A DNA stretch of 64,000 nucleotides, taken from positions 1 through 64,000 of the forward strand of contig NZ_KB899256.1 of the NCBI RefSeq assembly GCF_000378105.1, read 5' to 3'. This document shows positions 36,897-54,177 of this stretch, piece by piece (the stretch's first letter is position 1; each line of letters begins with the position of its first letter). The translations under genes were made by a program, and so were the position numbers. The DNA is from Rubritalea marina DSM 17716. Lineage in GTDB: Bacteria; Verrucomicrobiota; Verrucomicrobiia; Verrucomicrobiales; Akkermansiaceae. The notes beneath the pieces were generated by a model. It was given only the letters and a program-made list of their open reading frames with translations, did no database searches and was not told the origin of the DNA.

Positions 36897-38237
36897 ATGA
36901 ACTACCGCATTGCACTCAGCCTTCTCCTGGCCTGCAGCAGCTTGAGCCTCGCCGCCACACAGCCTAACATCATACTCATTTGTATCGATGACTTACGCCC
37001 CGAGCTCCCGAGCTTTGGCAAAGACTACATCCAGGCTCCCGCCATCGAAGGGCTCGCGGCAGAGGGCAGACTCTTCAAGCGCCACTACGTCCAAGCTCCC
37101 ACCTGTGGAGCATCACGCTTCGCCATGCTCACAGGCCTCTACCCAAAGACAGCCAAGCAACTCAGCAACGGAGCATTCAGAAGCCACGACCACAACAGCG
37201 CCCCCAGCTTCCCAGCTCACTTACGCAGTCATGGCTACCTCACCAGCTGCGTCGGTAAGGTCTCACATTATCCAGGAGGTTTCACGGGCAAAAATTGGAA
37301 CGACAAAACCAAGCCAGAGCTACCCGGCGCATGGGACCGCCAGCCTGATTGTTCAGGAGACTGGCTCACCCCTCAAGGATTGATGCACGGCTATGCCGAT
37401 GGCAAAGCCCGCAAGCGCGGCAAGACCCCAGCCCTCGAGGCCGCCGCAAAAGCAAGCTACCCAGATGACGCAATCCTCGACACCTTCCATCAGGAAATCG
37501 CCTTCCTCAACGACCAAAAAAAACCTTGGCTTTGTGCCGTTGGACTGCTCCGGCCACACCTTCCCTTTGCCTGCCCAAAGGAATTCCTCGCTTGCTACGA
37601 TCAGACAGAACTCCCATCCATCCCCGCCGCCAAGAAACCCAAACAAGGCGAATTCTGGCACCCGAGCGCCGAATTCTTTGGCGGCTACAAGCACCCAAGT
37701 GACCCAAGAAATAACGCCAAATACGCCGATGCTGTGCGCCGTCACTACGCCGCCTGCGTGACCTACGCTGACTCGAAAGTCGCAGAGATTCTCGAGACCC
37801 TCGAGTCCACTGGAGCCACCAAAAACACCATCATCATCCTCTGGTCAGACCACGGATGGCACCTCGGCGAACAACAAATCTGGGGGAAACACTCACCCTA
37901 CCACGTGGCCCTCCACGCGCCACTCATCATCAAGACTCCTGAAATGCTAAAACCTGGGGTACCCAGTGAGGCAGTCGTCGAAAGTATCGATATCTACCCC
38001 ACCCTCTGCGAACTTTTGTCACTCCCCACCCCCGGCCACCTCGAGGGAACCTCACTCGTGAAGATCGTCGCAGACCCCCGAGCCGAATCTGATGATCTCG
38101 CCATCGCCCATTGGGGCAAGCTACGCTCAGAGATCCGTAGCGATGACCACCAAATCATCAACCGCAAAACCAACAAGACCACCCAACGCTACAATCTAGC
38201 CAAAGATCCCCACGAATCACACAATTTGGCCCACTAG
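36897..38237 (+). CDS. Secreted sulfatase, S1 family
   Basis: A 446-residue alkaline-phosphatase-fold enzyme with a signal peptide ([15 protein letters not shown]). The nucleophile motif is [16 protein letters not shown]; the Cys would be matured to formylglycine by a sulfatase-modifying enzyme not seen here. Metal site: CIDDLRPEL at the start and [18 protein letters not shown] later. The pattern resembles iduronate-2-sulfatase-like members. It starts 4 bp after uxaC and likely desulfates uronate-containing polysaccharide or oligosaccharide in the periplasm. Substrate is unknown. Confidence 0.91.
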
Positions 38238-38266
38238 CAACTCTCGAACCACCACCTCAAGCTTCC

Positions 38267-39046
38267 ATGGATTTCCTCAACTCACTCTTCAACCTCAACG
38301 GAAAAGTCGCCCTCGTCATCGGTGGCACCGGAGAACTCTGCAGCCACATGGCCAAAGGCCTCGCACAAGCAGGCGCCGAAGTCGCCCTCGTCGGCCGCAA
38401 TGCCGAGAAGGCACAACAACGGATCGACGCCATCGAGGCCGCAGGCGGCAAAGCCTACTTCATCGCCGCAGACGTGGCCGACAAAGCAGCCATCCAAGGA
38501 GCACTCGACACCGCCGTCGCCCGCTCAGGCAAGGTCGACATCCTCGTCAATGGCGCCGGCATCAACTCCCCCACACCCGCACTCGAAATTAGCACCGAGG
38601 AGTTTCAAAACATCCTCAATGTCAACCTCACCGCCACCCTCCACGGCTGCCAAGTCTTTGCCAGCTATTGCCTCGAAAACAACATCCAAGGCAGCATCAT
38701 CAACCTAGGCTCCATCTCTGGCCTCAACCCACTCTCCCGCGTCTTTTCCTACTCGGCCTCCAAGGCAGCCGTCCACAATCTCAGCAAAAACCTCGCTCGC
38801 GAGTGGGCAAACCAAGGGATCCGAGTCAACACCCTCGTGCCTGGATTCTTCCCCGCCGAGCAAAACAAAAGTGTCCTCGACGAATCCCGCGTCGCCTCCA
38901 TCATGAACCACACCCCGATGGAGCGCTTCGGCAGCCCAGACGAACTCGTAGGCGCCACCATCCTACTAGCATCCAACACAGCCGGCAGCTTCATCACCGG
39001 CCACGAAATGATCGTCGACGGCGGTTTCAATAGCATGAGCATCTAA
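38267..39046 (+). CDS. SDR-family oxidoreductase, probable fructuronate/mannonate reductase
   Basis: A 259-residue classical short-chain dehydrogenase. Cofactor loop [13 protein letters not shown] (atypical: the usual third Gly is missing), NNAG-equivalent [18 protein letters not shown] with the catalytic Ser, and [11 protein letters not shown] with Tyr/Lys. The C-terminal [14 protein letters not shown] is typical. In uronate operons SDRs of this group reduce D-fructuronate to D-mannonate. That would follow uxaC directly. uxuA, kdgK and kdgA are not in the window, so the pathway is completed elsewhere. Confidence 0.88.
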
Positions 39047-39328
39047 GCAGGGATGCGTGTCCCTGAGAATCGATCTAATTCTCTGTATTGAGCCTGGCAC
39101 TTTATAGAAAACACAGTTTACAGAGGATATATAGATGATCATGCGCGCCCATGACTATCGATGAATATCCCTCGACTGAAAAACCGCTCCAGAAATCCGA
39201 GCTAAGTGTGAAATCTGAGCTATATGAAGCCTAAAATGGGCAGAAATCCTGCGTTCCGGGCACGACGATGCGCACCTTTTCTCTTGAGAGTTCAGCGACA
39301 GGGAATGAGACGATTTTTGGTCTCCTCA
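39047..39328. other. Intergenic 282 bp after the sugar-acid operon
   Basis: It contains a short hairpin CAGGGA/TCCCTG at about 39049-39065 that could end the operon. At 39069-39100 there is one copy of the repeat whose core reads TCTGTATTGAGCCTGGCAC. No gene is seen. The repeat copy lies on the 3' side of the transposase gene, while the array lies on its 5' side. Confidence 0.5.
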
Positions 39329-40519
39329 TCAAGTGTGAGGGCGCACTTCGCACGCATCCTTCAAATGCTGCCGGTGGGCGTAGATGCGAGACTCTTTGGT
39401 GTACGGCATCTTCTTCGCTCCATGGGTGCGATTCGCATAAGCCTCGCCGCATTGATCTTGCAGCGCGCTGAAGCCATCCTCGACAAATTCTTTAGAACCA
39501 AAGATCACACCATCCACCGCAAAACGTAACTTGCAGCGCAGCATCTGACGCCAGTTCAACTTGCCTCCCTCGTTGAGGATTTGCTCTACCTCTTTTCTAT
39601 CAAAACCTAGCTTACGCTTCCTCCGTGCCGACTGTGACTCACTAGGAATGGCATCCCCTACAGCCGCTTCCCCTTCTTCTGCTAGCATGCAACGATAGCG
39701 CGCACTCTCGCTTCTGAAGTCGAACCTTCTCTCCTCTTTCAGACTTCCCTTCTTGTCGTGTTCAGCTTGCCTCAAACTGGCCAAGTATTCATGCATCTTT
39801 TCCCTGCCGACCGCCTTCCACGCCTCGCAGAGCTCGAAGCTACTCTCATGCAACATCAAGGCCAGCAGCCCAGTTTGTACGCCCTTTGAGCTCCCATGAG
39901 CTGCAGCGTAGCCGCACCATCTGAAGTCCAGCGGCTCCTTCACGATGCCAGCTCGTAAAGGATTAAGGTCAATATATGCAGCGATAAAGCGTGCATGCCA
40001 GCCTCCCTGTACTTGCACGCTGGTAAAGCGCCCCTGCCACAAGGCCCCTTCTTTACCCTGTTCCTTGTTGAACCATCGGCTGTAGCCTTGCTTGATCGAG
40101 CGCATGAACTCCGAAAGGTTCCACATTCTGCGAGTGTAAGGCTCTCTTATCCCACGCACAGCAGCATCACGCTTTTCAACATCGGGTATCGCGCGGGCTG
40201 TGGCCAAGCGTTGCTGCATATCATCGATCAAGTCCTGCGAATACAAATGCGATAGTTGCTTGAGGAACTGATGATCGCTGATTTCATCAGCCTTGCCTGG
40301 CGGCACGTAGACCATCACATGGATGTGATTGCTCATAATGCAATACGCCAGCACCTTAAGATCGCCGAAGGCCTCGTACTTGCGCATCAGCTGCACAAAG
40401 AACTCACGGCCATGATCATCAAATACAAACTCGCGCCAAACAGCGCGAGTCACACAATGGTAAATACCACCCTGAGTGTCTTGGTGGCACGATAACAAAT
40501 ACTTACGGGGAATTCGCAT
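39329..40519 (-). CDS. REP-associated tyrosine transposase (RAYT, Y1 family)
   Basis: A 396-residue protein from the ATG at 40519. The N-terminal domain has the HUH nuclease motif SNHIHVMVYVP and the catalytic-tyrosine region FMRSIKQGYSRWFNKEQ; the further elements LWQGRFTSVQVQ and AAYIDLNPLRAGIV are standard for the family. A long C-terminal extension (about 230-396) with lysine/arginine-rich segments is unusual compared with short RAYTs but known in larger ones. RAYTs process and disperse REP hairpins, and the repeats on both sides fit. Confidence 0.9.
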   Translation of the reverse strand: MRIPRKYLLSCHQDTQGGIYHCVTRAVWREFVFDDHGREFFVQLMRKYEAFGDLKVLAYCIMSNHIHVMVYVPPGKADEISDHQFLKQLSHLYSQDLIDDMQQRLATARAIPDVEKRDAAVRGIREPYTRRMWNLSEFMRSIKQGYSRWFNKEQGKEGALWQGRFTSVQVQGGWHARFIAAYIDLNPLRAGIVKEPLDFRWCGYAAAHGSSKGVQTGLLALMLHESSFELCEAWKAVGREKMHEYLASLRQAEHDKKGSLKEERRFDFRSESARYRCMLAEEGEAAVGDAIPSESQSARRKRKLGFDRKEVEQILNEGGKLNWRQMLRCKLRFAVDGVIFGSKEFVEDGFSALQDQCGEAYANRTHGAKKMPYTKESRIYAHRQHLKDACEVRPHT

Positions 40520-40549
40520 GGGAGGAGGAGGGATTGAAAGTGAGACATC

Positions 40550-41045
40550 AGCAATCGCTAACATCAACTCACAGACTACTCCTACTCAACCAGTAACGCG
40601 ATCTAATTCTCTGTATTGAGCCTGGCACCATGTATGCACAATCGCTGACATCAACTCACAGACTACTCCTACTCAACTAGTAACGCGATCTAATTCTCTG
40701 TATCGAGCCTGGCACCATGTATGCTGTGTGTGCGAATTCTCTGTATTGAGCCTGGCACCATGTATGATACCTCACCGCTGCGCCAAAAGCGAGATTCTTC
40801 CTCATATCGAGCCTGTCACCATGTGTTACAAACTCGCGCCAAACAGCACGAGTCACACAATGGTAAATACCACCCTGAGTGTCTTGGTGGCACGATAACA
40901 AATACTTACGGGGAATACGCATGGGAGGAGGAGGGTTTGGGAGTTAGACATCAGAAAACGCTGACATCAACTCACAGACTACTCCTACTCAAATAGTAAC
41001 GCGATCTAATTCTCTGTATTGAGCCTGGCACCATGTATGCCATGT
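40550..41045. repeat. REP-like repeat array upstream of the RAYT gene
   Basis: The core GTATTGAGCCTGGCAC with flanks GCGATCTAATTCTCT and CATGTATGC occurs in full at 40598-40637, 40686-40724 and 41001-41040. A copy shortened at one end lies at 40732-40766 and a degenerate one at 40801-40826. A second unit, GACATCAACTCACAGACTAC plus CCTACTCAA, precedes the full copies at about 40561, 40649 and 40970. The core has the GCC-T-GGC palindrome. The array is flanked by and includes a piece of the RAYT 5' end. Confidence 0.8.
40829..40922 (-). pseudogene. Duplicated 5' fragment of the RAYT gene
   Basis: The codons from 40922 read MRIPRKYLLSCHQDTQGG and continue to WREF, identical to the first 31 residues of the neighbouring transposase; the frame then diverges. 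The 5' flanking sequence is also duplicated (matching 40520-40600). It is a partial duplication through the repeat region and not a functional gene. Confidence 0.85.
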
Positions 41046-41065
41046 ATGCATGGTTGGATTGTGCA

Positions 41066-41440
41066 TTATTCTATTTCCACAAATTGTTCGACCCAAAGCA
41101 TGTTTTCTTGATCAGTCATATTTAGAGAAAGTTCTATATTTGCAGAAGCATGATAACTTGGCACTAAACTAACACCGTTTGCATTAAAAATAACAACCCT
41201 AGGATCCATAGAGTAGACATCTCTCCACTTGACACTTTGTATACCTACATTTTCACACCAGACCGCAATATACTTATCATCATAGTTTGAGGGGAAACCT
41301 AACTCATTGTAGATAAATTCTCTAGTAACTCCAGAGTTAGGGATGATTTTATTCGGTCTTTTACAACACAAAAGAGGGACTGTCACACACACACAAATCA
41401 TTAAAAATCTAATATGAATCATAATTTCTGGGCTAATCAT
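41066..41440 (-). CDS. Small lipoprotein, candidate immunity protein for the RHS toxin
   Basis: A 124-residue protein whose ATG overlaps the RHS stop in an ATGA (41437-41440), so the two are translationally coupled. The N-terminus (FLMICVCVTVPLLCCKRP) is a lipoprotein signal with cysteines at an LLCC lipobox. The mature part has no recognised domain; GVTREFIYNELGFPSNYD and VIFNANGVSLVP are visible. A periplasmic, lipid-anchored product directly after a toxin domain aimed at peptidoglycan is the expected layout for an immunity protein. This is inference, and an accessory adhesin subunit is an alternative. Confidence 0.6.
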   Translation of the reverse strand: MISPEIMIHIRFLMICVCVTVPLLCCKRPNKIIPNSGVTREFIYNELGFPSNYDDKYIAVWCENVGIQSVKWRDVYSMDPRVVIFNANGVSLVPSYHASANIELSLNMTDQENMLWVEQFVEIE

Positions 41441-44400
41441 TTACCATTCCACTTACTATAATCATGGGTTCGGTAGTACTTTTTGTGCTGAACTTTACTT
41501 TCTGTTTTAATGGTTAATCCTGTTCCAGGAGTAGATCCAACATAGCCCTGTGAAGCTCCCAAGACAACTTTATTTCCTAAAGATATAGCTACATGACCAG
41601 GATAATTAACCACATCTCCATAAGATGCATTTTTCCCAATTTTTTGTCCATCGGCAGTGCTTTTCCCTATTAAGCTACCCATTGGACTCATCTCACCTAT
41701 ATTCATGTCCATTCTTCCAAATGTAGCATTCGCTCCCGCAGGCACACGTCCGACAGGGTTGTAAAACGGTCTATCAGGATGTCGACCTATTCGATGCGGC
41801 CAATTAGCACCAGATTCCATTAAGACATTGTAAACGAAAAGATTACAACATGCATAGTCCTTTCCTTGATATCGATCAGCCTTGTCATCATTCGCCCATA
41901 TTGAAAGTCCATTGAGAGCAATTTTCAATCCTCGTGGATCATCTGTTCCTTCTTTAACTGATTTAATCCCCTCGGCAATATCCTTAGCTGATTTAGCAAT
42001 AGAGGTGGAAACCTCTTTATAATCCTCAATTTTACGTTGCGTCCTTTTGTAATCATCTGACTCACTATCCATTTTTTCGAGCTTTGTCTGTAATTTCGTA
42101 GCTTCATTTCCAATTTCTTCAGCTCGTTGATTTAATTTCTCTAGACTCTTAGTTTCTTCTTCAGTTTCAGCTCTTAATCCTAATGGGTCAAAGAACGTCC
42201 ACGGGTTCTGAGTTACATAGGTGTAAACATTTGGGCCGTCGACGAAGCCTGCGGGGTCTCTGGTGAGGAAGACGCCGAACTCGAGGTCGCGGTAGCGGAA
42301 GTGCTCGTTGAGGAGGCCGGTGGGGTCTTCGTCTTTGGTGTTGGCGCGTTGGCGGTCGGCAGTGGCACCGTCTTCGAAGGTGCGCTGGCCGAAGGCTTCG
42401 TAGCGCGCTTCGTAGGTGGTGGTGCCGGTGTCATCGGTCTTGAGGATGACGTCGCCGCGGTGGTTGTAGTAGTTGAAGCTACTATCGCCAGCTCGGAGGG
42501 TGTAGAGGATGCCGCCGATGCCGCCGCCGTATTCGGATCCCCGCACGTATTCAACGGCGGGAGTTGCCAGTTCCCAGTTGCCGGTTCCCAGTTGATTATG
42601 CTCTTGGACGCTGAGGCCGTTGGAGAAGACTACTCTTGTGGTGTCTCCATTGGCGGCGGATTCATCGCGGAGGACGCGGCGGGTTCTATGATCGTAGGTG
42701 TACGCATAGTTTCCATGCTTGGTCGCATCATCGCCAGTGTTGAAGTCTAGGCTTACGAGGCGGTTATTGTAATCATAGCTGTAGATATCGACCGAGGCAC
42801 CCTGGGTTTTTGTGGCTCGGTTGCCGTTGAGGTCGTAGGTGAACTCGGTGAGTTCTGAACCTAGGGTTACTGACTTCAGCTGGTTCGAGTTGAAGTTGTC
42901 GGTGGTGGTTCCGTAAGCAAAAATCGAGGCCTCAGGTGTGCCGCCATTTTGGGTGATGGTTTTCGATGTACGGTTGTTGCCTTTGTCGTAGCCATAGTCG
43001 GTGAGGGTGGAGTCTGCGCCTTCGGTGCGGGTTTCGGTATCGAGGCGGTAGACTTTGTCATTGGCTAGAATGGTGGTCTGCTGCAGGGAGCCGCTCTGGC
43101 CGTACTCGGTGATGCGGGTGACATTGGACTGATCATCATAGTCGGTGACGCTGCGCTGGATTTGTGCGCCGCTGCTGAGTCTATTGGTGATGGTGGTCTT
43201 TCTGCCGAGGGCATCGTAGACATGGTCTGTGTAGGAGCCGTTTGGTAGGGTCTTGCGTGTGACTGCGCTGTTGAGGTTGTATGCGTAGCTGGTGACGCGC
43301 GGGGTGTCGGTACCGACGGCTTCGCTGCAGTTGTCTAGGCGGTTGAGCGCATCGTACTCTGAGGTGATGACGCGGTTGGTCTCGCCGTAGGTGAGGGTGC
43401 GGACGTTACCTGCACGGTCGTAGGTGGTGCTATGGGTGACTCCATTGGAGGTTTCTGTGGTGAGGCGGTTGAGCTCATCATAGTCCTGGATGACGCCGCG
43501 GATGGTTTGATTTTCTGCGGTTTCATTCGGGCAGGAAACTTCTTCGAGGTTGCCGACGAGGTCATAGTCCATGTGGCGATCATCTGCTGAGCGGCCGGTG
43601 TGCACCACATTCTCTAGACGATGGAGGTCATCGTATTGATAGGAGATGGCTTGTTGCTTGGGATCAATGGTTTGGGTGAGGAGGATTCCATTGTAGATGG
43701 AGGTTTCTTTCTTCTGCACTGCTGTGCCGATGTCCCAGATGGTTTCGAGCTTGCGGCCAAAGCCATCGTAGGTGAAGCCGGTGCTGTGGCCTGCGCCGTC
43801 GGTGACGCGGGTGAGGTTGCCCGCATCGTCGTAGGCATTGGTGACTACGATGTCGTTATTGCTGGTCACGCCCTGGTAGCTGGCGGCATTGAAGCCGGCA
43901 GTGGCGGGGTTTACGGGATTGCCGTCTACTGGATCAGTGGCGGTGGCTACGAGGCGGTTGAGTGCGTCGTAGGCATTGCGGGTGATATTGCCTTCGCCGT
44001 CGATGACGGTGGTGATGTTGGAGGCTTTGTCGTAGAAGGTTTCTACAAGGATATCATCTGCATTGAGTGAGGCTGGGTTTGTGGATGGATTACCAGTTTC
44101 AGGGTTGCTGATCATGTCCGTGACACGGTAGGCGCGATCGTAGAAGTTACGTGTGACATTGCCACGGGCATCGGTGAGCTTAAGGACAGATCCTACGCCG
44201 TTGTAGCTAGTCTGGATGCGTGGTCGCTGAGCGGCGCCTGGTGAGGCTGGATTCTCAGCGTCTGTGACGGCTGGCTGGTATTCATCGGTGCGGCGGTTGC
44301 GCGCATCGTAGGTGAAGTCCCATACTTTTCCGAGTGGATTGATGGTTTTGAGCACATTTGAATTGGCATCGTACTGGGTTTCCACCATGGGTGATCCCGT

Positions 44401-47400
44401 GAGGCCATCCGCGCTTAAAGTGCGGTTGACTTTGCCCGTGATAGGGTCTGGGGACCAGACTCTGACTGGGCGCCCAGCGGCATCGTATTCCGTCTCAGAC
44501 TCTCTGAGTAGAGGATCGATGGTCTTCCATGCTAGTCCGGTGCTGGTGTACTGTGTTCTGGTGGTAGCTGCGAGGGTGGTACCATGCGCCTTGGTGACAG
44601 AGGTAGGTCTGCCGAGGCCATCGAGGATTGTCTTGGTCTTCCTACCTAGGTCATCCGTGACGGTGATATCGAGAGATTCCTTGCCATTGCTGCGCGCGCC
44701 ATAGGTGGTGATGGTACGGCGGAAGTTCTGCTCGAAGCCGCCGGCATTGGAGTCAAACTGCGCGACTTCCTGAGTTTGGCGGTAGACGTTGTCGTAGACA
44801 TTGTAGGTGGTGAGCGTGGCTGTGCCTTGATCTGTGAGGACTGCACCATGAAGCACTACTTTGGTAGGCTTGAAGCCTGCGGAATTGAACGCGCTGGAGC
44901 CGGGGTTGGCATCTAAGACGGAGCCATTGATGCTCAGCTGATCCGCGTAGGAGAGCTGGGTGTGGGTCTTAGTGTTAGAAGCCGCAGCAGCAGCGGCAGC
45001 TGTGTTGTAGTTATGTACTTCGGAACCATTGATCCCGGTGAAGATGTGTTGCGGGCGCTGGATCGCATCGTAGAAGGTGCGAGTGTGGGTGCCTCGAGAG
45101 TCGAGGGTAATGGTCGGGTTGTTGACCGCATCATAGTAAATTCTGGTGTGAATGTCTGTAGCTCCCGGTGAGCCACGGTTACTATCAGGGACTAGACCAT
45201 TGGAATTTTTCTGTGGGAGATTCACACCGTCCATGTCTACGACTGTGGTGGTGATGCGGTTGAGCGCATCGCGGTGATGGAAGGTGTAATTGCCTTCCTC
45301 ATCAATCTCACCCACTTTATTTCCATTGAAATCATAGAGGATTTCTTTGGATGTTAGCTTGGAGCCTGTCGAGGTGCCTGCAGCCGGGTAATTGACGTAC
45401 GTGAGGCGGTTGAGGTCATCATAGGTGAAGGTGGTGGTATTGTTTCGTCCATCAGTGACGCCTGTGCGGTTGTTGTTGGCGTCGTAGGTGTAAATGGTGG
45501 TGAGTGCTAGGCCGCCAGGATTGATGATGCTTTTGTACACCATGCCGTTGTCTATATTCGGCACACTCTGGGTGCGGATGCTTTGCTCCCAGGTCTTGCC
45601 TGTGACATCCTTGTGCTTGTTGATATAGCTGTCGGTCACCATTCCTGGGAAGCTGGCATTGTTGTACTGATAGATCATCTTGCTCAGCACATTAGAGCCT
45701 TGAGAGACGGTTTTTGATTTCACACGTCCCATGGTATCAACATCCATGCTGGTGGTCATGCCGTGCACATCGACATGGTTATTCATAACGCGATAATTCG
45801 CGGAATAGCCGTAGGTCTCAGTGCGGCCCAGAGCGTCGGTTTTCGATGTTGGATCACCCCAGAGGGTGAGGTAGTTTTTGTCGACATTGATGAATGGGAT
45901 CTTGAGGCGATCTGCGCCCAAGCCATCGGTGTAAGCCCATGTGGTGGTATTGCCTGAGAAGTCGATGGTTTTTTCTAAAGCCATGCCTGCCTCTGGCTTG
46001 TACAGGAAGGTCTCGGTGCCGATGTGGCCAGCTTGTTGTGGCCAGTTGCCATGGTGGACCTGCATCTGAGTGTAGTAGAGTAGCCAATTGCGCGAGGTGG
46101 AGCTGCCGCCATGCGAGTAGCTGGTGGAGCTCTGCACCATGGCGCCATCTACTTTGTCTCCTCCATCTTTGGAGTTGAAGTCGTAGCATGTGCGGTTGCC
46201 CAAGGTATCGGTGACGATAGTGGCTGATTTTGCTCCAAAATCCTCACCGTATCTGGTGTAAGTATCGCTGGTTTTGGTGAAATAGCTGGTTCCGACACCA
46301 CCCGGTAGGGTGATACTGCGCACCTGACGCGGGAGGCCGAATCCCACAGAATAGCGATCATTAAGATGATGGTTCGCCAATATGCTATCATTCAAGTTTC
46401 TAAGGGCATCGTAGGCTAGGGACTTTGCTTTGGAATAAATATCATTCAATGATGAATTAAAACTATATGGAGTTACCCCATTTCTTCCATAATATTCAAC
46501 CGTACGATCATAGCCATAATTGATGTTATGGGTCTGGTTGCGCTTGTCGGTGATGGAGCGTAGCGCATGATGGAAATGGAAGGTGACTTGATTGTCCAAG
46601 TGCTGTTCGTCGACTCTGGAATCATAGCCGTAGCGCACGACCGTACCGTCGGAGTAGGAGACCGAATCGAGGGTAACGTAGCTGTGATTCTGGCTATTAT
46701 TGGGCACGCCTCTTCCTGAGGTATCGCGCTGGTGAAGGGTACGGTTCTTCGTGTAGTTGAAGCTAATCGTCTTACCACGACTGTCGGTGATACTCTCGAT
46801 CAATCGTCCATCACTTGAACGATTGATGGCTATGCCTTGAGGAGTTGTGGTGCCAGGTACACGGCGGTTCGGCGCGGTGATCGATTCAGGAATCAAGGAA
46901 ATGTCCGAGGTGCCGTAGTCGTAATTGAGAGCGACACCAAAGCGATCTCTCACCGAGGCGAGTCGGTAGTAGGTGTGCTTTTTAACACGCGTACTGCCGA
47001 ATTGCCTATCTTGGGAATGCATGAACCAGGCATCGCTGCTATTGTAGGTCAAGGTGTGGCCATGCTTCTTCTGCAAGGTGAAGCTAGAACCTGACTTGGT
47101 GAGCTTGTTCAAATAGGTTTGCTTGTCCACAAAGCCATCTGGCCATGGGAAGTAGGTGCTATCATCATTAGTACCAAAGCGGAGTCTTCGACCAGATTCA
47201 TCCACCACATAGACCGCTGTTGGCTCATTGGAGTTCTCACCCAAAGTTTCTACCACTTCGACATAGGCACAGAGGTTCGATGACCATGCCACACCGAACG
47301 GTAGGTCGAGTCTCTCGTGTGGGCGCAAGCTGGAGCGATTGTTCCAAATGGTCTCACGGGCTGAGGCATTTGCCTGTAGCTTCAGATCACTGGCACCAAG

Positions 47401-50400
47401 TGGCACATGCACAAAGGAAGTGTCATGATTGAGGTGGAGATTGAAGGCGTCCACGTAGGTCTCTTCTGCGTAGTCGTCACTCTGCGCGGTCTGTTCAGGC
47501 TTAGAGTCTGGAATAGGGCGGCCGTTGAGTGCCACTTTACGGTTCTGTGGGCCAATCATCATACTCCCAGAAAAGCTCGAGCTCCAAGACTGCCTTGAAA
47601 TAGGAAGGGCGTAAAAACTCCCTGCTAAATAGAAATTATGAGCTTCAGATGGTATTATTGGGGAATAATACTCACGGGTGAAGTATGGCGAAACCGAGGC
47701 TCGATTTTCATTAAAGTAATATCCATCAGGAGCACCTTTAAGTCTATCATTTCCTACGAATATAAAGTCTCCACGAAATTGAAAATCTACTCTTAGATGG
47801 TTATGATGCCCATGCCCAAACATGCTTTTCAGCTCACCAAATTCGTCATAGACTGGCTCATTCATTGATTTAACCCACTTTGAAGGATGGTCATATGTCG
47901 GCAAATTAGAGGTAAAGGGAAGGCTAGCCTTAGCCCAGTTCGATGTATCAACCAAATAGTTCCTCGAAGAATGTAATGGTATAGTATAAAAGTTACCCCT
48001 ACTAGCATTTAGACTTCTCTCGTAATAGCTATCTCTATTCGCATAATACACATTAAAAGATTTCAGTACTTCACCGACCCCAGCAGGTATATCACTATTA
48101 AATTGCGAGTAGTACAATATGTGACTGACCCCAGTACCCGGTGATATACTGTCGGGATCTAATAATCCCACATAATTAATTGCAGGATCTACAATATTCG
48201 GCCCTGTGTGGTTAGATGCAATAAACGGGCTTGAAACGATTGATGATGGACTATGGCCTAACATGACCTCAATACCGTCTTCAAATCCATCACCGTCAGA
48301 ATCTGCAGTCAAATGATTGGTGCCATAAACTAGCTCCAATGAGTAGCTCAATCCATCGCCATCATAGTCCGACAACTCAAAATCCTGTATTAAGGGATGT
48401 ACGTTCGCGTCTTCATAATATTCGTAAGTATCCGTAAGAGAGTCCTGATCTGAATCCTCTATATTTGGTAAAGTCCCAACCTGCCACTCGACTAGATCAC
48501 TGAGGCCATCATCATCGAAGTCTCCATCACTCACAGCGAGGCCAGAGAAAAAATGCAGTTCCCACCAATCCGGTATTTGGTTGGTGTTAGTATCAGCCTC
48601 ATCGATAGAGTCATCCAGGCCACCGAGCACAGAGCGCTCACGCCAGTCTGCCACCGCATTGCCATTCAGATCCTCTTCGCGGACTTCGAGCGGATCTGCC
48701 ACAAGGTAGTAGGCTGACTGGACTGCATCCCAGAGCCAATAGCAACCATCCTCAAAGGTGATTCTGGGCATGTACTCACTTTCAAGCTCTGAAGTGATTA
48801 ACAGACGGTCTGCTCCGTGGAAGGTTAATGTTAATTCAATGAATGGCGTGGAAGTACTCGCTTGGACATTTACCATGACTTCATCACAGTAGACTCCATT
48901 TAAAACAACTTCATCGCCAGATCCAAATCTATCTTCCATTACCGTTTGCATGACAGCTCCAAAAGTAAGCTCATAGCGATCAGCTCCAACCCCACCATCA
49001 AGAATATTAGCTCCATAACCACTGATGATGACATCATCCCCCGCACCACCTTGTATGGTGTCATTCCCGCTATAGCCGTAGAGCACATCATCGCCGCCAC
49101 TTCCGGTAAGGGCTTCATCGTGGCCAATCGAACCATGAATCACTTCATTGGCTGAGCTACCTGCAGCCTGCACTAGCATCTCAAGAGTGTCTTGGTAATG
49201 CACGGTGCCGGACCATAGGTCAATCAACTGGACAGTCAGAGCTGGCAGATGACCAACGATATAGTCATCAGGGCTAATGTAGAGCTGCCATTCAATTACA
49301 TCCCCCAGGTCATTGAGGTTGTTCACATTCAACCAATCATTCGCCCAGAAGTACCCTGGTCGTAGAGCATGTGAAGTACTAACACGGTGTGACACATACT
49401 CTATGTTTAGGTTCATAATACCAGTATGATAAGCCCCAGTAACATATCTGGAAGCATAGCGTGTGTCTGTACCACCGAATGGGTTCGGCACCTGCACACC
49501 TGTGAACTGGTCAAAACTAAATACCGTGCGGCCTATGGCATCGATACGGCACTGGAAACTCACGACGCTAGGTATCGAATCCTGAGTGAAAGTCATCCCC
49601 TGCCACTGCACGATAAAGTAACTCTCTGAACCGGCACTGGCTGGGAAGTACTGATAGTAGACCTCTCCCCCATCCAATCGAGCCATCAAGGGGGCGATAA
49701 TCAGGTCGGAAGAGTTCTGTTGCTCATATACATCATCATAATCTATACGAAATAAGACTTGATCTAGCTCCGCGGATGTAAGCTCCGCATCGTAGGTAAG
49801 GAATCCGTTGCGAGAGATGTAGAGGGTTTGTGTGCTCAATTCTTGCTGCGAGAAGACTTCAGCTAAGTTTTTGGTGACCATTTCATTCACAGATCCTGTG
49901 AAATCAAGCAACTCACCTGTCGCTGAGATATCTTGCCATTGGTACTGAGATTGATTGAAGAATTGGTAATCTGGAGCTGGAACGACACCATCTTCTACAA
50001 GGCGAATACTTAGATCCCCTGTAATGGGTAAGCCATCAATAGATCGCGGCAAGGTCACGGATGAACCTTCTTGCACATTGATACGTAAGTTAGACTGAGC
50101 CACAATCGGTGAAGATTGATTGATGAATTCATTCAGGTTGGTCACATAGTCACCATCTTGATCACCACTTGCTCCATTCTCAATGTTTACAGATCCATCA
50201 TCGAGAGGATCCAAGCCATAGGTAACTTCCCAAACATTTGGTAATCCGTCTTTATCACTATCGACCAGCACATCAGCGGCTGCGGCATGGTAGGCGATGT
50301 TCTGGATCGTTCCGGCTTCCCCTTGTATAGAGGCATCCACAAAGAGTGGCTCATCGGATGAGAGGCTAGATGTGTGGATCAGTGTTTCATTGACCCAATA

Positions 50401-53400
50401 CGTAATCTCCGTGCCGGAGCGGGCAATAGTAAAACTATCATAACTTTCATAAGATTGGGAGGCTGTGACATTACTGCCGCTCTCTCTTACAGTCACAAGG
50501 CTCTTCTCCAAAGTGATGCCAAAATCGATATCAGAGGTTGCGCTCGAATCATTGGAAGCATTCATACCCAACGTAGCCACATCCGCGTAGGATGGGAAAC
50601 GGAAGGTGACTTTGAAGTCTCCGGTAAAGGTGACCTCTGAGACAGCATCTGCATCCTCCCCATCCGCAGATTGTGATTTGCTTAGCATTGAGCCCTCATC
50701 GCCAAGCCCAGGCAAAGTCGCCTCCAAACCATTTCTGTATGACCACACCACTGGGGACCATGAGATTACTTCATTCGCCACATTAGGATCGGAATCAAGC
50801 TCGAACTCGGCGCGGTTGGTTAGGAAATCTCTATCCGGGTCTCCAAATGCACCATCACCACCTACATCACTTTGTGTGTCTAATTGATGAGTGGTTTCCC
50901 AGGAGTCAGCCAGTGTGTCTCGATCTTGGTCAATCAAGACATCACTAATATTCGGTACGCGGTAAGCACAGTTCGACAATGAAGCATTGTCAGATAGGAG
51001 TGCCACATCCATGAAAAGGTCACCAGAACTCTCGATCACAGAGGTGTAAAACACTAGACCATTGACCGCATAGGTGACCGTTTCTCCTTTTCTTTTGATA
51101 CTAAAGGAATCATGCTCTGCATAAGCACGTGCCTCTGTCACTTCCACACCATTCTCGTACACACTGACCAGTCCCTTATCCCAGAGAATAGCGTAATCGA
51201 GTTCTTCAAGTGAGGCATCTCCGTTGTTCTTGTTAAAACCTGCAGCGGCAACCATGCTATCATCAGCGAAGCGGAAAGTGAGCTCAGCATCCTCCAGCAG
51301 TATTGCCGTTGAGACAGCGTCAGCTGGTTCACCCGCGACTTTGGTTGTCGTTGTTTGAAGGAATGATCCATGCTCGCCAATAGCTGCGGCTCTGGTTTCA
51401 GCACCTCTAAATTCCATCCAATCCAGCTCATTCCACGCGTCCCCAGGGCGAAGGCTCGGATCAGTGCCGCTCTCATACTCGGCAAGGTTGGTCACAAAGT
51501 CTATGTCGGGATCCCCGAGGGCTCCGTTATCTAAGTTCGTACTGCCATCGTCATTTGGATCTAAATTATTGGTGCTTTCCCAATCATCACCCAAGCCATC
51601 GTTGTCCGTATCAGCAATAATCACAACAATATCGCGTGAAACCACATTCTCGATCATGGCACCCGTGCTGCTCAATGACACATCCACAAAATAGCTTTCC
51701 TCACTGTTCTCAAGAAGGGTGTATACATCGACACCATTCACGGCCACCGTCAAGACGCCCTGCTGACGTTTGAAGTTGAAGCTGTCAGAGATCTGGTATT
51801 GCCCAAGCGTGGTGATCGCAATGCCATCTTGCAAGAGCGTGACCATCCCCTGATTCCAATAGATCGCGTATTCAAGATCTGCTAGATCTCGACTATCGTT
51901 ACTGGAGTTTAAGCCCAGAGCCGCTTGCGAAATAGGATTGGCAAAGCGGAAGCTCAACTCGAACCCGTCCATAAAGCTAGTATCGGATACAGCATCCGCA
52001 TTGAAGCCCTCAGCCGCATCAGTAGACTTCACCAATGCAGATCCTTGAGTTCCTGAAATTGAATTTGTGGCAGATTCGACATCCTGTAAATCAGCCCAAG
52101 CAAGAGCAGTCCAGCCTGTGCGATCGCCAGCATCTTGCGGGTCTGAATTATTCAAATACTCGACGATATTGGTGAGCATATCACCATCTGGATCTCCCAT
52201 CGCCCCGTTCACGGCATTCGTAGAGCCGTCGTCGTCTGAATCTAGCCCATTGTTCGCCTCCCAATCACTAGGCAAGCCATCCTCATCTACATCATTGTCT
52301 ATGATCGTAACGGATGCTCCAAAGCCAGAAATAGTATGAGTATCGCTAAGATTTAGCTCTAATGTTAGCTCTTCTTTCCCTTCGGCGCTTAAGTCATAAA
52401 TCGGGGTAACGATTACGGAAACGCTGGATTGCCCTGCTGGTATGACAGCCACACCGGATAGAGGTTGATAATCCTCACTAGCTTGAGCGGTACCACTCAC
52501 GAAATATGTAACCGCTAGATCCGAACTTACTGGCTGGCCAGCGGCAACAATGAAGGATGCTGTGTTGCTCACATCAGTAGCATCCGCGATCATGTCATCA
52601 GCAGTAATGGTGATCACGGGGAGCACATAATCCACAATAGTGACGGAATCCTGAGAGGCTCCAACAGTAAAGCCTTGACCAGCAAGTAGCGTCAGAATCA
52701 GTGATTCATCCCCCTCAGCAATGAGGTCTGAAACAGCCGCAATATCAATATCTGCCGTAGTTTCGTTTGCAGGTATGACAACGCTTCCGCTCAGCTGGGT
52801 GTAGTCCACTCCATTGGTTGCTGATCCCCCTAGTGTGTATTCCACCACAAGTGATGTTGCCCATGCGATTGTCGAAGTGACGGTGAAACGCGCCAAATCT
52901 GAGCTATCTTGTTCTGAGGCCAATGCATCAGCGACACTTACAGACAATTCAGGAAGTGGCTGGTCTACGATAGAAATCGTCGCCTCATCTGACTCAAGAG
53001 CAAAGCCATCACCCTGAGAGAGGGTGATCGTGACAGTCTCGGTCGACTCAAGCTCAAGATCTTTAATCGCAGTGACTTCTATAGTATTCGAAGATTCACC
53101 TGCTGGGATGATTACCATTCCAGATAAATCTATGAAATCAACTCCTGACGTAGCAGTTCCGCTGACCACATACTGAAGCTGCAGATCTTGAGTCACGGCT
53201 TCGCTGATATTAACGGTCAATACCGCTGTGTCAGTGACATCTTCTTCAGAAGCTGTCGCGTCCGTAGCTACGATAGATACGGTTGGTAATTCGTAATCAG
53301 AGATCACAACGGATGCCGACGCCGAGCCTAGCTCGTAACCAGCACCTGCAAGTAGAGTGAGTGACACCTCTTCATCACCTTCAAGTTCTAGGTCGCTGAT

Positions 53401-54177
53401 AGCAGTCACCACAACATCAACACTAGAAGTGTCAGCTGGGATCACTACTCCACCTGACAGGCTATCATAGTCTACCCCATTGCTTGCTGTACCACCCACA
53501 GAGTAGCTCACCGCGAGGTCTTCACTGACTGGTTTCGAAGCGCTAATACGAAGAATACCCGTATCTGAACTATCTGACTCATTCGCAGTCGCGTCTATGG
53601 CTGTAATCGACACGACCACATCCCCGCTAAGCTCATCTCCGTCTTCGATGAAGCGTAGCGCGAAGAGGGCCTTGAGCTGTCCAATGCTGGCGAGCTTATA
53701 GTTGTCCGCCACGGGGGTGGCTTCGTCCCACGGGTAGTTGTTGGCGGAGAGGGTGATGCCATTTTTCTGGGCTTGATCCTGCAGCCAGCCCTCTGGAAGA
53801 ACATCGTAGAAGGGCTTGGCTAGGGCCTTGAGCTGGCCGAGGTTGAGTGGGGCGAGCTGGGCTTGATACCAGGCGGAGTCTGGGTTCTGCGGCGGTGCTG
53901 GGAAGATGGATTCGAGATCGATCTCTGCAGCGAGATCTGGAGATTGCAGCGCCAGCTCAGCCTTGGCTTGTATCGCCATCCATTTTGCCTGCCCGATACT
54001 TGCTACCGCCAGGTTGTTCTGCGTTGCAGCATCGTCGATGACACCACGGTCTTGCCACCATTGCAAAGTTTGGGCACTTGCATATGGCGTCAACAAAGAA
54101 AGCGTGAATGCAAGAGCAGCACACAAGGAGGTGACACGCCAGTGCATGGCGGGTAGGAATGAGGAATCCTTCATCAA
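41437..54177 (-). CDS. Giant RHS-repeat polymorphic-toxin-like surface protein
   Basis: A 4246-residue exported protein with a signal peptide (ALAFTLSLLTPYASA). Domain order: N-terminal QWWQDRGVIDD and repeated ASIGQAKWMA/LGQLKALAKP segments (about 37-180); four Calx-beta repeats (about 188-627); four thrombospondin type 3-like Asp-rich modules alternating with about 130-residue beta domains (about 628-1365); RTX-type calcium repeats (GGDDVLYGYSGNDTIQGGAG, about 1680-1740); more Asp-rich repeats (about 1830-1970); RHS/YD repeats (about 2230-3990); and the core end FRYRDLEFGVFLTRDPAGFV to FDPLGL. The variable C-terminal 248 residues carry a cysteine at YACCNLFVYN and a GDVVNYPGHVAISLG motif, which resembles NlpC/P60 (papain-like) hydrolases. 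By analogy with RHS toxins, it would degrade peptidoglycan or cleave a peptide bond. A 4-bp overlap links it to the lipoprotein gene. Confidence 0.88.
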   Translation of the reverse strand: MMKDSSFLPAMHWRVTSLCAALAFTLSLLTPYASAQTLQWWQDRGVIDDAATQNNLAVASIGQAKWMAIQAKAELALQSPDLAAEIDLESIFPAPPQNPDSAWYQAQLAPLNLGQLKALAKPFYDVLPEGWLQDQAQKNGITLSANNYPWDEATPVADNYKLASIGQLKALFALRFIEDGDELSGDVVVSITAIDATANESDSSDTGILRISASKPVSEDLAVSYSVGGTASNGVDYDSLSGGVVIPADTSSVDVVVTAISDLELEGDEEVSLTLLAGAGYELGSASASVVISDYELPTVSIVATDATASEEDVTDTAVLTVNISEAVTQDLQLQYVVSGTATSGVDFIDLSGMVIIPAGESSNTIEVTAIKDLELESTETVTITLSQGDGFALESDEATISIVDQPLPELSVSVADALASEQDSSDLARFTVTSTIAWATSLVVEYTLGGSATNGVDYTQLSGSVVIPANETTADIDIAAVSDLIAEGDESLILTLLAGQGFTVGASQDSVTIVDYVLPVITITADDMIADATDVSNTASFIVAAGQPVSSDLAVTYFVSGTAQASEDYQPLSGVAVIPAGQSSVSVIVTPIYDLSAEGKEELTLELNLSDTHTISGFGASVTIIDNDVDEDGLPSDWEANNGLDSDDDGSTNAVNGAMGDPDGDMLTNIVEYLNNSDPQDAGDRTGWTALAWADLQDVESATNSISGTQGSALVKSTDAAEGFNADAVSDTSFMDGFELSFRFANPISQAALGLNSSNDSRDLADLEYAIYWNQGMVTLLQDGIAITTLGQYQISDSFNFKRQQGVLTVAVNGVDVYTLLENSEESYFVDVSLSSTGAMIENVVSRDIVVIIADTDNDGLGDDWESTNNLDPNDDGSTNLDNGALGDPDIDFVTNLAEYESGTDPSLRPGDAWNELDWMEFRGAETRAAAIGEHGSFLQTTTTKVAGEPADAVSTAILLEDAELTFRFADDSMVAAAGFNKNNGDASLEELDYAILWDKGLVSVYENGVEVTEARAYAEHDSFSIKRKGETVTYAVNGLVFYTSVIESSGDLFMDVALLSDNASLSNCAYRVPNISDVLIDQDRDTLADSWETTHQLDTQSDVGGDGAFGDPDRDFLTNRAEFELDSDPNVANEVISWSPVVWSYRNGLEATLPGLGDEGSMLSKSQSADGEDADAVSEVTFTGDFKVTFRFPSYADVATLGMNASNDSSATSDIDFGITLEKSLVTVRESGSNVTASQSYESYDSFTIARSGTEITYWVNETLIHTSSLSSDEPLFVDASIQGEAGTIQNIAYHAAAADVLVDSDKDGLPNVWEVTYGLDPLDDGSVNIENGASGDQDGDYVTNLNEFINQSSPIVAQSNLRINVQEGSSVTLPRSIDGLPITGDLSIRLVEDGVVPAPDYQFFNQSQYQWQDISATGELLDFTGSVNEMVTKNLAEVFSQQELSTQTLYISRNGFLTYDAELTSAELDQVLFRIDYDDVYEQQNSSDLIIAPLMARLDGGEVYYQYFPASAGSESYFIVQWQGMTFTQDSIPSVVSFQCRIDAIGRTVFSFDQFTGVQVPNPFGGTDTRYASRYVTGAYHTGIMNLNIEYVSHRVSTSHALRPGYFWANDWLNVNNLNDLGDVIEWQLYISPDDYIVGHLPALTVQLIDLWSGTVHYQDTLEMLVQAAGSSANEVIHGSIGHDEALTGSGGDDVLYGYSGNDTIQGGAGDDVIISGYGANILDGGVGADRYELTFGAVMQTVMEDRFGSGDEVVLNGVYCDEVMVNVQASTSTPFIELTLTFHGADRLLITSELESEYMPRITFEDGCYWLWDAVQSAYYLVADPLEVREEDLNGNAVADWRERSVLGGLDDSIDEADTNTNQIPDWWELHFFSGLAVSDGDFDDDGLSDLVEWQVGTLPNIEDSDQDSLTDTYEYYEDANVHPLIQDFELSDYDGDGLSYSLELVYGTNHLTADSDGDGFEDGIEVMLGHSPSSIVSSPFIASNHTGPNIVDPAINYVGLLDPDSISPGTGVSHILYYSQFNSDIPAGVGEVLKSFNVYYANRDSYYERSLNASRGNFYTIPLHSSRNYLVDTSNWAKASLPFTSNLPTYDHPSKWVKSMNEPVYDEFGELKSMFGHGHHNHLRVDFQFRGDFIFVGNDRLKGAPDGYYFNENRASVSPYFTREYYSPIIPSEAHNFYLAGSFYALPISRQSWSSSFSGSMMIGPQNRKVALNGRPIPDSKPEQTAQSDDYAEETYVDAFNLHLNHDTSFVHVPLGASDLKLQANASARETIWNNRSSLRPHERLDLPFGVAWSSNLCAYVEVVETLGENSNEPTAVYVVDESGRRLRFGTNDDSTYFPWPDGFVDKQTYLNKLTKSGSSFTLQKKHGHTLTYNSSDAWFMHSQDRQFGSTRVKKHTYYRLASVRDRFGVALNYDYGTSDISLIPESITAPNRRVPGTTTPQGIAINRSSDGRLIESITDSRGKTISFNYTKNRTLHQRDTSGRGVPNNSQNHSYVTLDSVSYSDGTVVRYGYDSRVDEQHLDNQVTFHFHHALRSITDKRNQTHNINYGYDRTVEYYGRNGVTPYSFNSSLNDIYSKAKSLAYDALRNLNDSILANHHLNDRYSVGFGLPRQVRSITLPGGVGTSYFTKTSDTYTRYGEDFGAKSATIVTDTLGNRTCYDFNSKDGGDKVDGAMVQSSTSYSHGGSSTSRNWLLYYTQMQVHHGNWPQQAGHIGTETFLYKPEAGMALEKTIDFSGNTTTWAYTDGLGADRLKIPFINVDKNYLTLWGDPTSKTDALGRTETYGYSANYRVMNNHVDVHGMTTSMDVDTMGRVKSKTVSQGSNVLSKMIYQYNNASFPGMVTDSYINKHKDVTGKTWEQSIRTQSVPNIDNGMVYKSIINPGGLALTTIYTYDANNNRTGVTDGRNNTTTFTYDDLNRLTYVNYPAAGTSTGSKLTSKEILYDFNGNKVGEIDEEGNYTFHHRDALNRITTTVVDMDGVNLPQKNSNGLVPDSNRGSPGATDIHTRIYYDAVNNPTITLDSRGTHTRTFYDAIQRPQHIFTGINGSEVHNYNTAAAAAAASNTKTHTQLSYADQLSINGSVLDANPGSSAFNSAGFKPTKVVLHGAVLTDQGTATLTTYNVYDNVYRQTQEVAQFDSNAGGFEQNFRRTITTYGARSNGKESLDITVTDDLGRKTKTILDGLGRPTSVTKAHGTTLAATTRTQYTSTGLAWKTIDPLLRESETEYDAAGRPVRVWSPDPITGKVNRTLSADGLTGSPMVETQYDANSNVLKTINPLGKVWDFTYDARNRRTDEYQPAVTDAENPASPGAAQRPRIQTSYNGVGSVLKLTDARGNVTRNFYDRAYRVTDMISNPETGNPSTNPASLNADDILVETFYDKASNITTVIDGEGNITRNAYDALNRLVATATDPVDGNPVNPATAGFNAASYQGVTSNNDIVVTNAYDDAGNLTRVTDGAGHSTGFTYDGFGRKLETIWDIGTAVQKKETSIYNGILLTQTIDPKQQAISYQYDDLHRLENVVHTGRSADDRHMDYDLVGNLEEVSCPNETAENQTIRGVIQDYDELNRLTTETSNGVTHSTTYDRAGNVRTLTYGETNRVITSEYDALNRLDNCSEAVGTDTPRVTSYAYNLNSAVTRKTLPNGSYTDHVYDALGRKTTITNRLSSGAQIQRSVTDYDDQSNVTRITEYGQSGSLQQTTILANDKVYRLDTETRTEGADSTLTDYGYDKGNNRTSKTITQNGGTPEASIFAYGTTTDNFNSNQLKSVTLGSELTEFTYDLNGNRATKTQGASVDIYSYDYNNRLVSLDFNTGDDATKHGNYAYTYDHRTRRVLRDESAANGDTTRVVFSNGLSVQEHNQLGTGNWELATPAVEYVRGSEYGGGIGGILYTLRAGDSSFNYYNHRGDVILKTDDTGTTTYEARYEAFGQRTFEDGATADRQRANTKDEDPTGLLNEHFRYRDLEFGVFLTRDPAGFVDGPNVYTYVTQNPWTFFDPLGLRAETEEETKSLEKLNQRAEEIGNEATKLQTKLEKMDSESDDYKRTQRKIEDYKEVSTSIAKSAKDIAEGIKSVKEGTDDPRGLKIALNGLSIWANDDKADRYQGKDYACCNLFVYNVLMESGANWPHRIGRHPDRPFYNPVGRVPAGANATFGRMDMNIGEMSPMGSLIGKSTADGQKIGKNASYGDVVNYPGHVAISLGNKVVLGASQGYVGSTPGTGLTIKTESKVQHKKYYRTHDYSKWNGK

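Follow-up and report, generated by a model that had tools for sequence, protein, structure and literature searches.

Sequence comparisons point to the left end of RAYT-like transposase genes as a duplication hotspot, and as the probable origin of a repeat array in Rubritalea marina

The window, the whole stretch of 64,000 nucleotides from Rubritalea marina DSM 17716 that was analysed, carries an intact gene for a RAYT-like Y1/HUH transposase, here called RAYT-A, with copies of a short motif on both sides of it (Table 1). The encoded protein matches the Pfam family Y1_Tnp (PF01797) with 53.1 bits against a cut-off of 23 (E = 4.4e-14), a match that bears out the RAYT-like identity proposed in the original prediction. 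In an alignment of 21 sequences, residues H65, Y182 and N186 of RAYT-A are invariant and H67 and P187 are conserved at 90% or more, and the protein shows the Y---NP signature (Y182, N186 P187) of TnpA-REP class 2, that is, of RAYT in the wide sense. Its score against the NCBIfam model REP_Tyr_transpos is 62.9 bits, below the curated cut-off of 80. Assignment to the IS200/IS605 transposases, which share the catalytic domain and the multicopy state with RAYT-A, was rejected, as the NCBIfam IS200 model gave 23 bits against a cut-off of 55 and the signature is Y---NP, not Y---Q, the form given for subclass 1.1 (PMC6006769). A PDB sequence search with one protein matched nothing, an Rfam scan of positions 38000-43000 returned no family, and a promoter and terminator scan stayed at chance level.

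RAYT-A is multicopy, so that this place cannot be called the source locus, as had been proposed. Besides the window copy (contig C10), a second intact copy, 96% identical to it, lies on contig C4, a third is cut by the end of contig C18, and the end of contig C19 holds a left end and gene start that probably belong to another. Between the C10 and C4 copies there are about 42 synonymous and 17 non-synonymous changes, and the corresponding dN/dS of 0.10 indicates a protein under purifying selection.

Table 1. Features of the RAYT-A locus (positions in the window)
Feature	Position	Strand	Remarks
RAYT-A, RAYT-like Y1/HUH transposase gene	39329..40519	-	intact ORF, 396 aa, ATG 40519
Left end of intact RAYT-A: core (40618-40628) and leader	40520..40637	-	repeat families D1-D3
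Left-end copy of ~86 bp, motif and leader without coding part, 1-2 nt filler	40638..40724	-	97% identical to left end
Short left-end copy of 32 bp with ~10 nt filler	40725..40766	-	100%, family D3
Degenerate left-end copy (GTGACAGGCTC) with unrelated tail	40767..40826	-	69% over 32 nt; one-mismatch core 40809
214-bp left-anchored copy: motif, leader and first 96 bp of gene	40827..41040	-	95% identical to 40424-40637
9-bp exact tandem duplication directly outside the outermost core	41031..41049	-	scored at -530
Lone left-end-type repeat 3' of RAYT-A, oriented like the upstream copies	39071..39100	-	30 bp, 100% to upstream copies
Possible inverted right-end core (GACAGGGAATGAGACG), tentative	39297..39316	+	C10/C18 homology ends at about 39304

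Upstream of RAYT-A lies an array of five motif copies within about 430 bp (414 bp core to core), in agreement with the five copies in 450 bp reported earlier. The cores, GAGCCTGGCAC in plus-strand sense, stand at 39090, 40618, 40705, 40748 and 41021, to which the one-mismatch core is to be added; all six have the same orientation, five upstream of the gene and one downstream, as expected from the claim that they flank it. Six cores with at most one mismatch in the window compare with a mean of 1.83 in shuffled sequence, and 1 of 100 shuffles reaches six. The second unit said to be mixed into the array proves to be the leader, of which 94-bp copies, 88-94% identical among themselves, lie at 40553, 40640 and 40956, and the copy of the gene's own start that had been described is there too, its coding part (40827-40922; 96 bp, 32 codons) accompanied in the 214-bp stretch by the whole leader and the motif. 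The clear units share a common start, GCATACATGGTGCC^AGGCTC, and have differing ends. The left end of RAYT-A scores 16.5 against the left-end consensus of its relatives (95% null 6.5), and the C4 paralogue also has a similar downstream motif copy. Exact tandem duplications (unit 9-59, low-complexity units excluded) number five in the 64-kb window in all, one of them at the outer edge of the array.

Two secondary structures and two neighbouring frames complete the description of the locus. Within the leader (40535-40582, minus strand) a GTAG stands shortly 5' of a weak stem-loop (z -0.84) and is repeated three times with the leader; this combination is a possible vestige of a GTAG REP. Inside the gene, a hairpin of 10 pairs (40451-40428, minus strand) ends about 3 nt short of the right edge of the 214-bp unit. 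Strong hairpins as cryptic right ends were nevertheless rejected, for when 12 variable edges were compared with other positions of the same genes the percentiles did not differ from uniform (Kolmogorov-Smirnov p 0.11, 0.84 and 0.69 for 25-, 30- and 40-nt windows), so that a hairpin at the edge is not a rule. Right beside the array ends an ORF of 4246 aa (41437-54177, minus strand) with Calx-beta, RTX and RHS repeats, followed on the same strand by a 124-aa ORF (41066-41440) without a Pfam match, in the position of an immunity gene; inspection by eye of the ORF starts around nine stretches gave no sign that motif clusters mark RHS toxin loci.

Mapped across the genome, the pattern GRGMCWGKCACNWT has 34 matches (26 forward, 8 reverse), many of them clustered, and its reversed control has 0; a few of these matches probably reflect chance or coding sequence. 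The repeat therefore does not occur at this locus only, and the earlier finding is real and of wider scope than the window alone could show. The description of the repeat as REP-like did not survive, since the dispersed core is without the GTAG tag and the two window copies that were folded show no significant palindrome (z +1.07 and -1.33). No GT[AG]G was found at the dispersed cores listed, and the gene-linked GTAG leader is missing from lone motif copies. The genome also contains a second family, RAYT-B, whose 5' end lies at nine contig ends (C2, C4 at both, C8, C15 at both, C16, C21 and C24) and whose 3' part lies at four others (C1, C5, C17 and C20), where the end motif recurs downstream in inverted orientation. 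RAYT-B is IS-like in being multicopy and in its inverted end motifs, and its copies appear to have broken the assembly. The motifs of RAYT-A and RAYT-B can be aligned by eye (GTGCCAGGCTCAATACAGAG and TAGACAGACTAAATACAGAG).

Away from transposase left ends, 8 of the 23 motif sites that lie in retrieved stretches of this genome (a subset of the 34 matches) overlap an exact tandem duplication, compared with 0 of at most 2000 random windows. These eight represent six duplication events, two of which each hold a pair of cores, and the remaining 15 sites have no duplication. An intergenic repeat of roughly 400 bp with the motif core is present in at least three copies (L046 on C3, L045 on C20 and L047 on C9): the C9 stretch is plain, the C3 stretch has a 17-bp duplication ending GTGCCA^GG, and the C20 stretch has a 13-bp duplication starting, within 1 nt, at GTGCC^AGG. 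A further duplication in the C3 stretch, about 46 bp long, lies some 160 bp away from the core, so that the core is not the sole place of duplication. At the inverted right ends of RAYT-B, short duplications stop at the same core position in two of four (C1 and C17, by eye), and among the nine RAYT-B left ends an edge falls exactly at the core position in one (L085) and close to it in two more (L032, L033).

To describe the left end more generally, a motif search in 83 loci of the order yielded a consensus beginning AAAGGGACAGGC. As many as 71 of the 83 loci score above the shuffled 95% threshold, a generous count, since the model had been trained on these very loci without retraining for the null. 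The narrow distance to the gene, with 50 of the 71 motifs starting 62-69 bp before the start codon, supports its reading as a left-end motif.

Duplications were counted by a fixed rule, namely exact tandem duplication with a unit of 9-39, low-complexity and very-short-period repeats being excluded, and each region test used only loci in which that region was fully present and not N-masked. Set 1 (relatives within the order) comprised 90 loci, drawn from the matches listed together with the genome's own C4 copy, from which four duplicates (L103, L116, L119 and L123) were dropped to leave 86; it contains 29 of the first 30 inspected loci in the same or refetched form (L129 is out), and it was enlarged after duplications had been seen, the choice of the added loci following their place, not their content. 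Set 2 consisted of 40 of the matches listed in genomes of the same class but of other orders. Set 3 (named genomes) was formed from the best 80 of 569 matches in an alignment-based contig scan, from which five loci overlapping with those of the earlier sets (L280, L282, L318, L334 and L347) were dropped to leave 75, and other loci of set 1 and set 2 genomes may remain in it; a contig scan with one protein as query gave no matches. In set 1 the window locus enters the counts among the control hits (-600 to -400) and not among the upstream ones.

In set 1, the 200 bp directly upstream of the gene contain duplications at 22 of 81 loci, compared with 8 of 467 control stretches (Fisher p 8e-14), the controls being made up of stretches further upstream (4/71 and 1/66), in the gene (0/86 and 0/85) and downstream (2/80 and 1/79). 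The same region in set 3, from the best 80 of 569 matches, gives 21/64 against 4/394 (p 4e-16). For set 2 the figures are 3/39 upstream and 3/233 in all controls (p 0.04), and the excess of short duplications outside the order is weak. Duplications in the downstream 0-200 bp are rare, at 2/80 in set 1 and 2/72 in set 3 (again from the best 80 of 569 matches), and the non-coding upstream regions of other genes at the same loci have them in 4/52, 1/20 and 2/63. The loci are not fully independent, many paralogues being present in some genomes; the duplicated units nonetheless differ from locus to locus. By these counts, many genomes of the order show the left end of the gene as a duplication hotspot, and the recurrence of similar duplications at many related genes in other bacteria suggests that DNA is cut and duplicated at the motif.

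The edges of the duplications are concentrated on the motif. Right edges fall exactly at GNC^WG in 12 of 38 cases (nine RAYT-B ends of the genome itself being included; 11/34 in set 1 without them), against a random mean of 2.3 and a maximum of 8 in 5000 draws, and in set 3 (from the best 80 of 569 matches) in 9 of 32, against a random mean of 1.5 and a maximum of 6 in 2000 draws. Within 6 nt of the core lie 25 of the 38 right edges (9.7 at random) and, for the best 80 of 569 matches that gave set 3, 16 of 32 (7.0 at random); in set 2 none of the three right edges coincides with the core. The majority are off the exact core position, 26/38 and, in set 3 from the best 80 of 569 matches, 23/32. 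Among longer duplications it is the left edge that clusters, on the 5' side of the GNC^WG core and about 13-14 nt from it (range 6-20). In our reading, the distances are 14, 14 and 13 nt in the window; 9 (L141), 18-19 (L147), 13-14 (L148), 12 (L152), 13 (L171), 12-20 (L186) and 14-15 nt (L190); and 13 (L138), 17 (L158), 13 (L160), 18 (L139), 10-11 (L285), 14 (L323), 14-16 (L278) and 6 nt (L238). The right edges of these longer duplications vary from the leader to about +800 in the gene, and no sequence consensus was seen by eye at the variable edges. Partial gene copies in set 1 span the start in 9 of 65 loci and the stop in 1 of 65; the nine include a whole tandem element (L149), which is also the stop-spanning one, and one copy that is not anchored on the left end (L169). 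Start-spanning and stop-spanning copies are equally frequent in set 3, from the best 80 of 569 matches (2/48 each), and occur in 1/37 and 0/37 loci of set 2.

At the junctions of the duplications about 0-2 nt are shared, or up to about 10 filler bases are present. The array had been read as a record of repeat-driven rearrangement; taken as recombination, this does not fit such junctions, at which one edge stands beside the core. In two relatives with comparable copies at several places (G050 and G024), the duplicated units carry flank that is unique to the locus (L147 and L190 in G050, L148 in G024, and the short units of L185 and L188), so these copies arose in place. The corresponding flank in the window, CATACATG, is common to other sites and is no such marker; we infer that the window array was also made in place.

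The explanation that we favour, with a probability of roughly 0.6, is that the array was built up by successive tandem duplications on the spot, anchored at the left end of a multicopy RAYT/TIRYT-type gene, with nicking by the transposase as their presumed trigger. The hotspot seen across the order is probably due to such nicking. In this mechanism the HUH transposase would nick the single-stranded left end in the core and immediately 5' of it; the nicked ends would then be joined or re-copied without homology, so that the segment from the left edge to some point X would come to stand twice in tandem. An X near the core would give short units, mostly of 9-19 bp, and an X within the gene would give partial gene copies such as the 214-bp unit of the window. 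Once two copies are present, ordinary slippage could expand or shorten the array, and slippage probably enlarges arrays once formed. A bolder proposal, which we put forward tentatively and hold to be somewhat less likely true than false, is that a whole branch of 'domesticated' Y1 transposases still makes cuts in the cell at the left end of its own gene, in the core as well as about 13-14 nt ahead of it. Such enzymes would be local duplication engines, and clusters would be the product of left-anchored duplication in place and not of repeat transposition.

Replication slippage could also produce units that are short and tandem, if an AT-rich or hairpin-prone left end duplicated by itself and the transposase merely adjoined it. 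Some ends do have strong hairpins (z -6.36 and -2.28), and the eight identical 13-bp units at L206 are typical of slippage once a duplication exists. Duplications are, however, also found at ends without a significant predicted hairpin (L184, L147, L186 and L206), which speaks against hairpin slippage as the general cause of the hotspot; they are rare in the 200 bp downstream (2/80, 2/72) and upstream of other genes, their edges cluster on the core, and the primary junctions are without repeats. Taken together, we consider slippage unlikely as the origin of the array.

Still less probable is one-ended transposition, by which fragments of other copies, running from the left end to a random right end, would have inserted beside the resident left end. 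A fixed left edge with a variable right edge is what a one-ended event of IS200-like kind would leave, and the window alone is compatible with it, its units sharing the CATACATG start. The duplicated units of relatives (L147, L190, L148, L185 and L188) carry flank that other copies lack and are therefore local, and no constant target tetranucleotide was seen by eye 5' of the left edge. Several near-identical motif copies in the genome would offer substrates for homologous recombination or unequal crossing-over between dispersed motifs, yet the sequences that meet at the primary junctions are unrelated, with homology of about 0-2 nt or with filler, and recombination could merely resize an array already there; we regard it as very improbable. 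The contigs of this genome do break at RAYT genes, as an assembly artefact at a multicopy gene would suggest, but the array lies inside a 112-kb contig, its 94-bp copies differ from one another (88-94%), and many other assemblies show the pattern too, a genome of four contigs (G005) among them, which leaves an artefact with next to no credibility.

Among named systems, RAYT-A and its repeat, which resembles TIRYT ends, come nearest to the TIRYT/TIRtron, described as Y1 transposase genes with non-GTAG TIR ends, some of them GGGGWSAS, which form small dispersed families, some clustered (PMC3733652). The consensus of the relatives, AAAGGGACAG, looks close to GGGGWSAS, with GTGCCAGGC as the window variant. 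Inverted end copies like those of TIRYTs are present at RAYT-B; the two clear copies at RAYT-A are direct, and the inverted one is tentative. The TIRYT account, in its passages on these elements, contains neither left-anchored partial gene duplications nor duplication edges in the motif core, and it describes large REP clusters as reiterated with variable-length flanking DNA (PMC3733652). A survey of TnpA-REP subclasses 2.1, which is Bertels group 1, and 2.3 reports no REP-like sequences at the genes in the sections on these subclasses (PMC6006769). RAYT-A resembles both in its class 2 Y---NP signature and long C-terminal extension, and subclass 2.3 in being multicopy, and differs from them in its left-end motif with dispersed copies. 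If the genes do belong to this group, a recognisable end would exist in it after all.

The locus shares with GTAG REP/RAYT systems (REPtron, BIME) an HUH/Y1 transposase beside its own dispersed repeat (PMC2817692, PMC8266576). It differs from them in that the core has no GTAG, the two folded window copies have no significant palindrome, and the fragments are 5' and not 3'; in those systems rayt 3' termini are captured between repeats, and Nunvar et al. proposed nicking at the repeat as a possible primer of replication that runs into the gene (PMC2817692). Unlike the REPtron, with one full-length gene per repeat type, this genome has two intact RAYT-A genes and at least one contig-end copy. REPIN clusters repeat an element in tandem together with its flank (PMC3116915); REPINs are inverted REP doublets, and the passages on their clusters describe no edge anchoring or gene fragments. 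Neither left-anchored partial duplication nor the placing of duplication edges in the core was found to be described in the relevant passages of the openly licensed literature.

The question touched by these results is how repeat clusters form beside RAYT genes, the mechanisms of REP dissemination having been called poorly understood (PMC8266576), and whether 'domesticated' transposases still cut cellular DNA. Since the sequence scars point to a defined position, cutting is directly testable. If the proposed mechanism is true, the transposase would write tandem copies of its own end, its leader and the front of its gene, and small tandem duplications at nicks would have a natural model in bacteria; such duplications at breaks have been studied in eukaryotes (PMC8355091, PMC5730883).

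Several relatives have many RAYT genes of one type, with 32 in G050, 28 in G047 and 17 in G024 among the matches listed. In G050, alignments to one copy (L141) extend no further than the stop codon or a little beyond it, subgroups sharing more downstream sequence, and three loci (L140, L145 and L182) form a subfamily with ends that appear by eye to be palindromes centred on the core. In G024, the two whole RAYT elements of L149 stand in direct tandem, 1520 bp apart and 92% identical. Upstream of L206, the 13-bp unit, which ends in GAC, is present in eight exact copies as a minisatellite directly before the AGAC at the left end.
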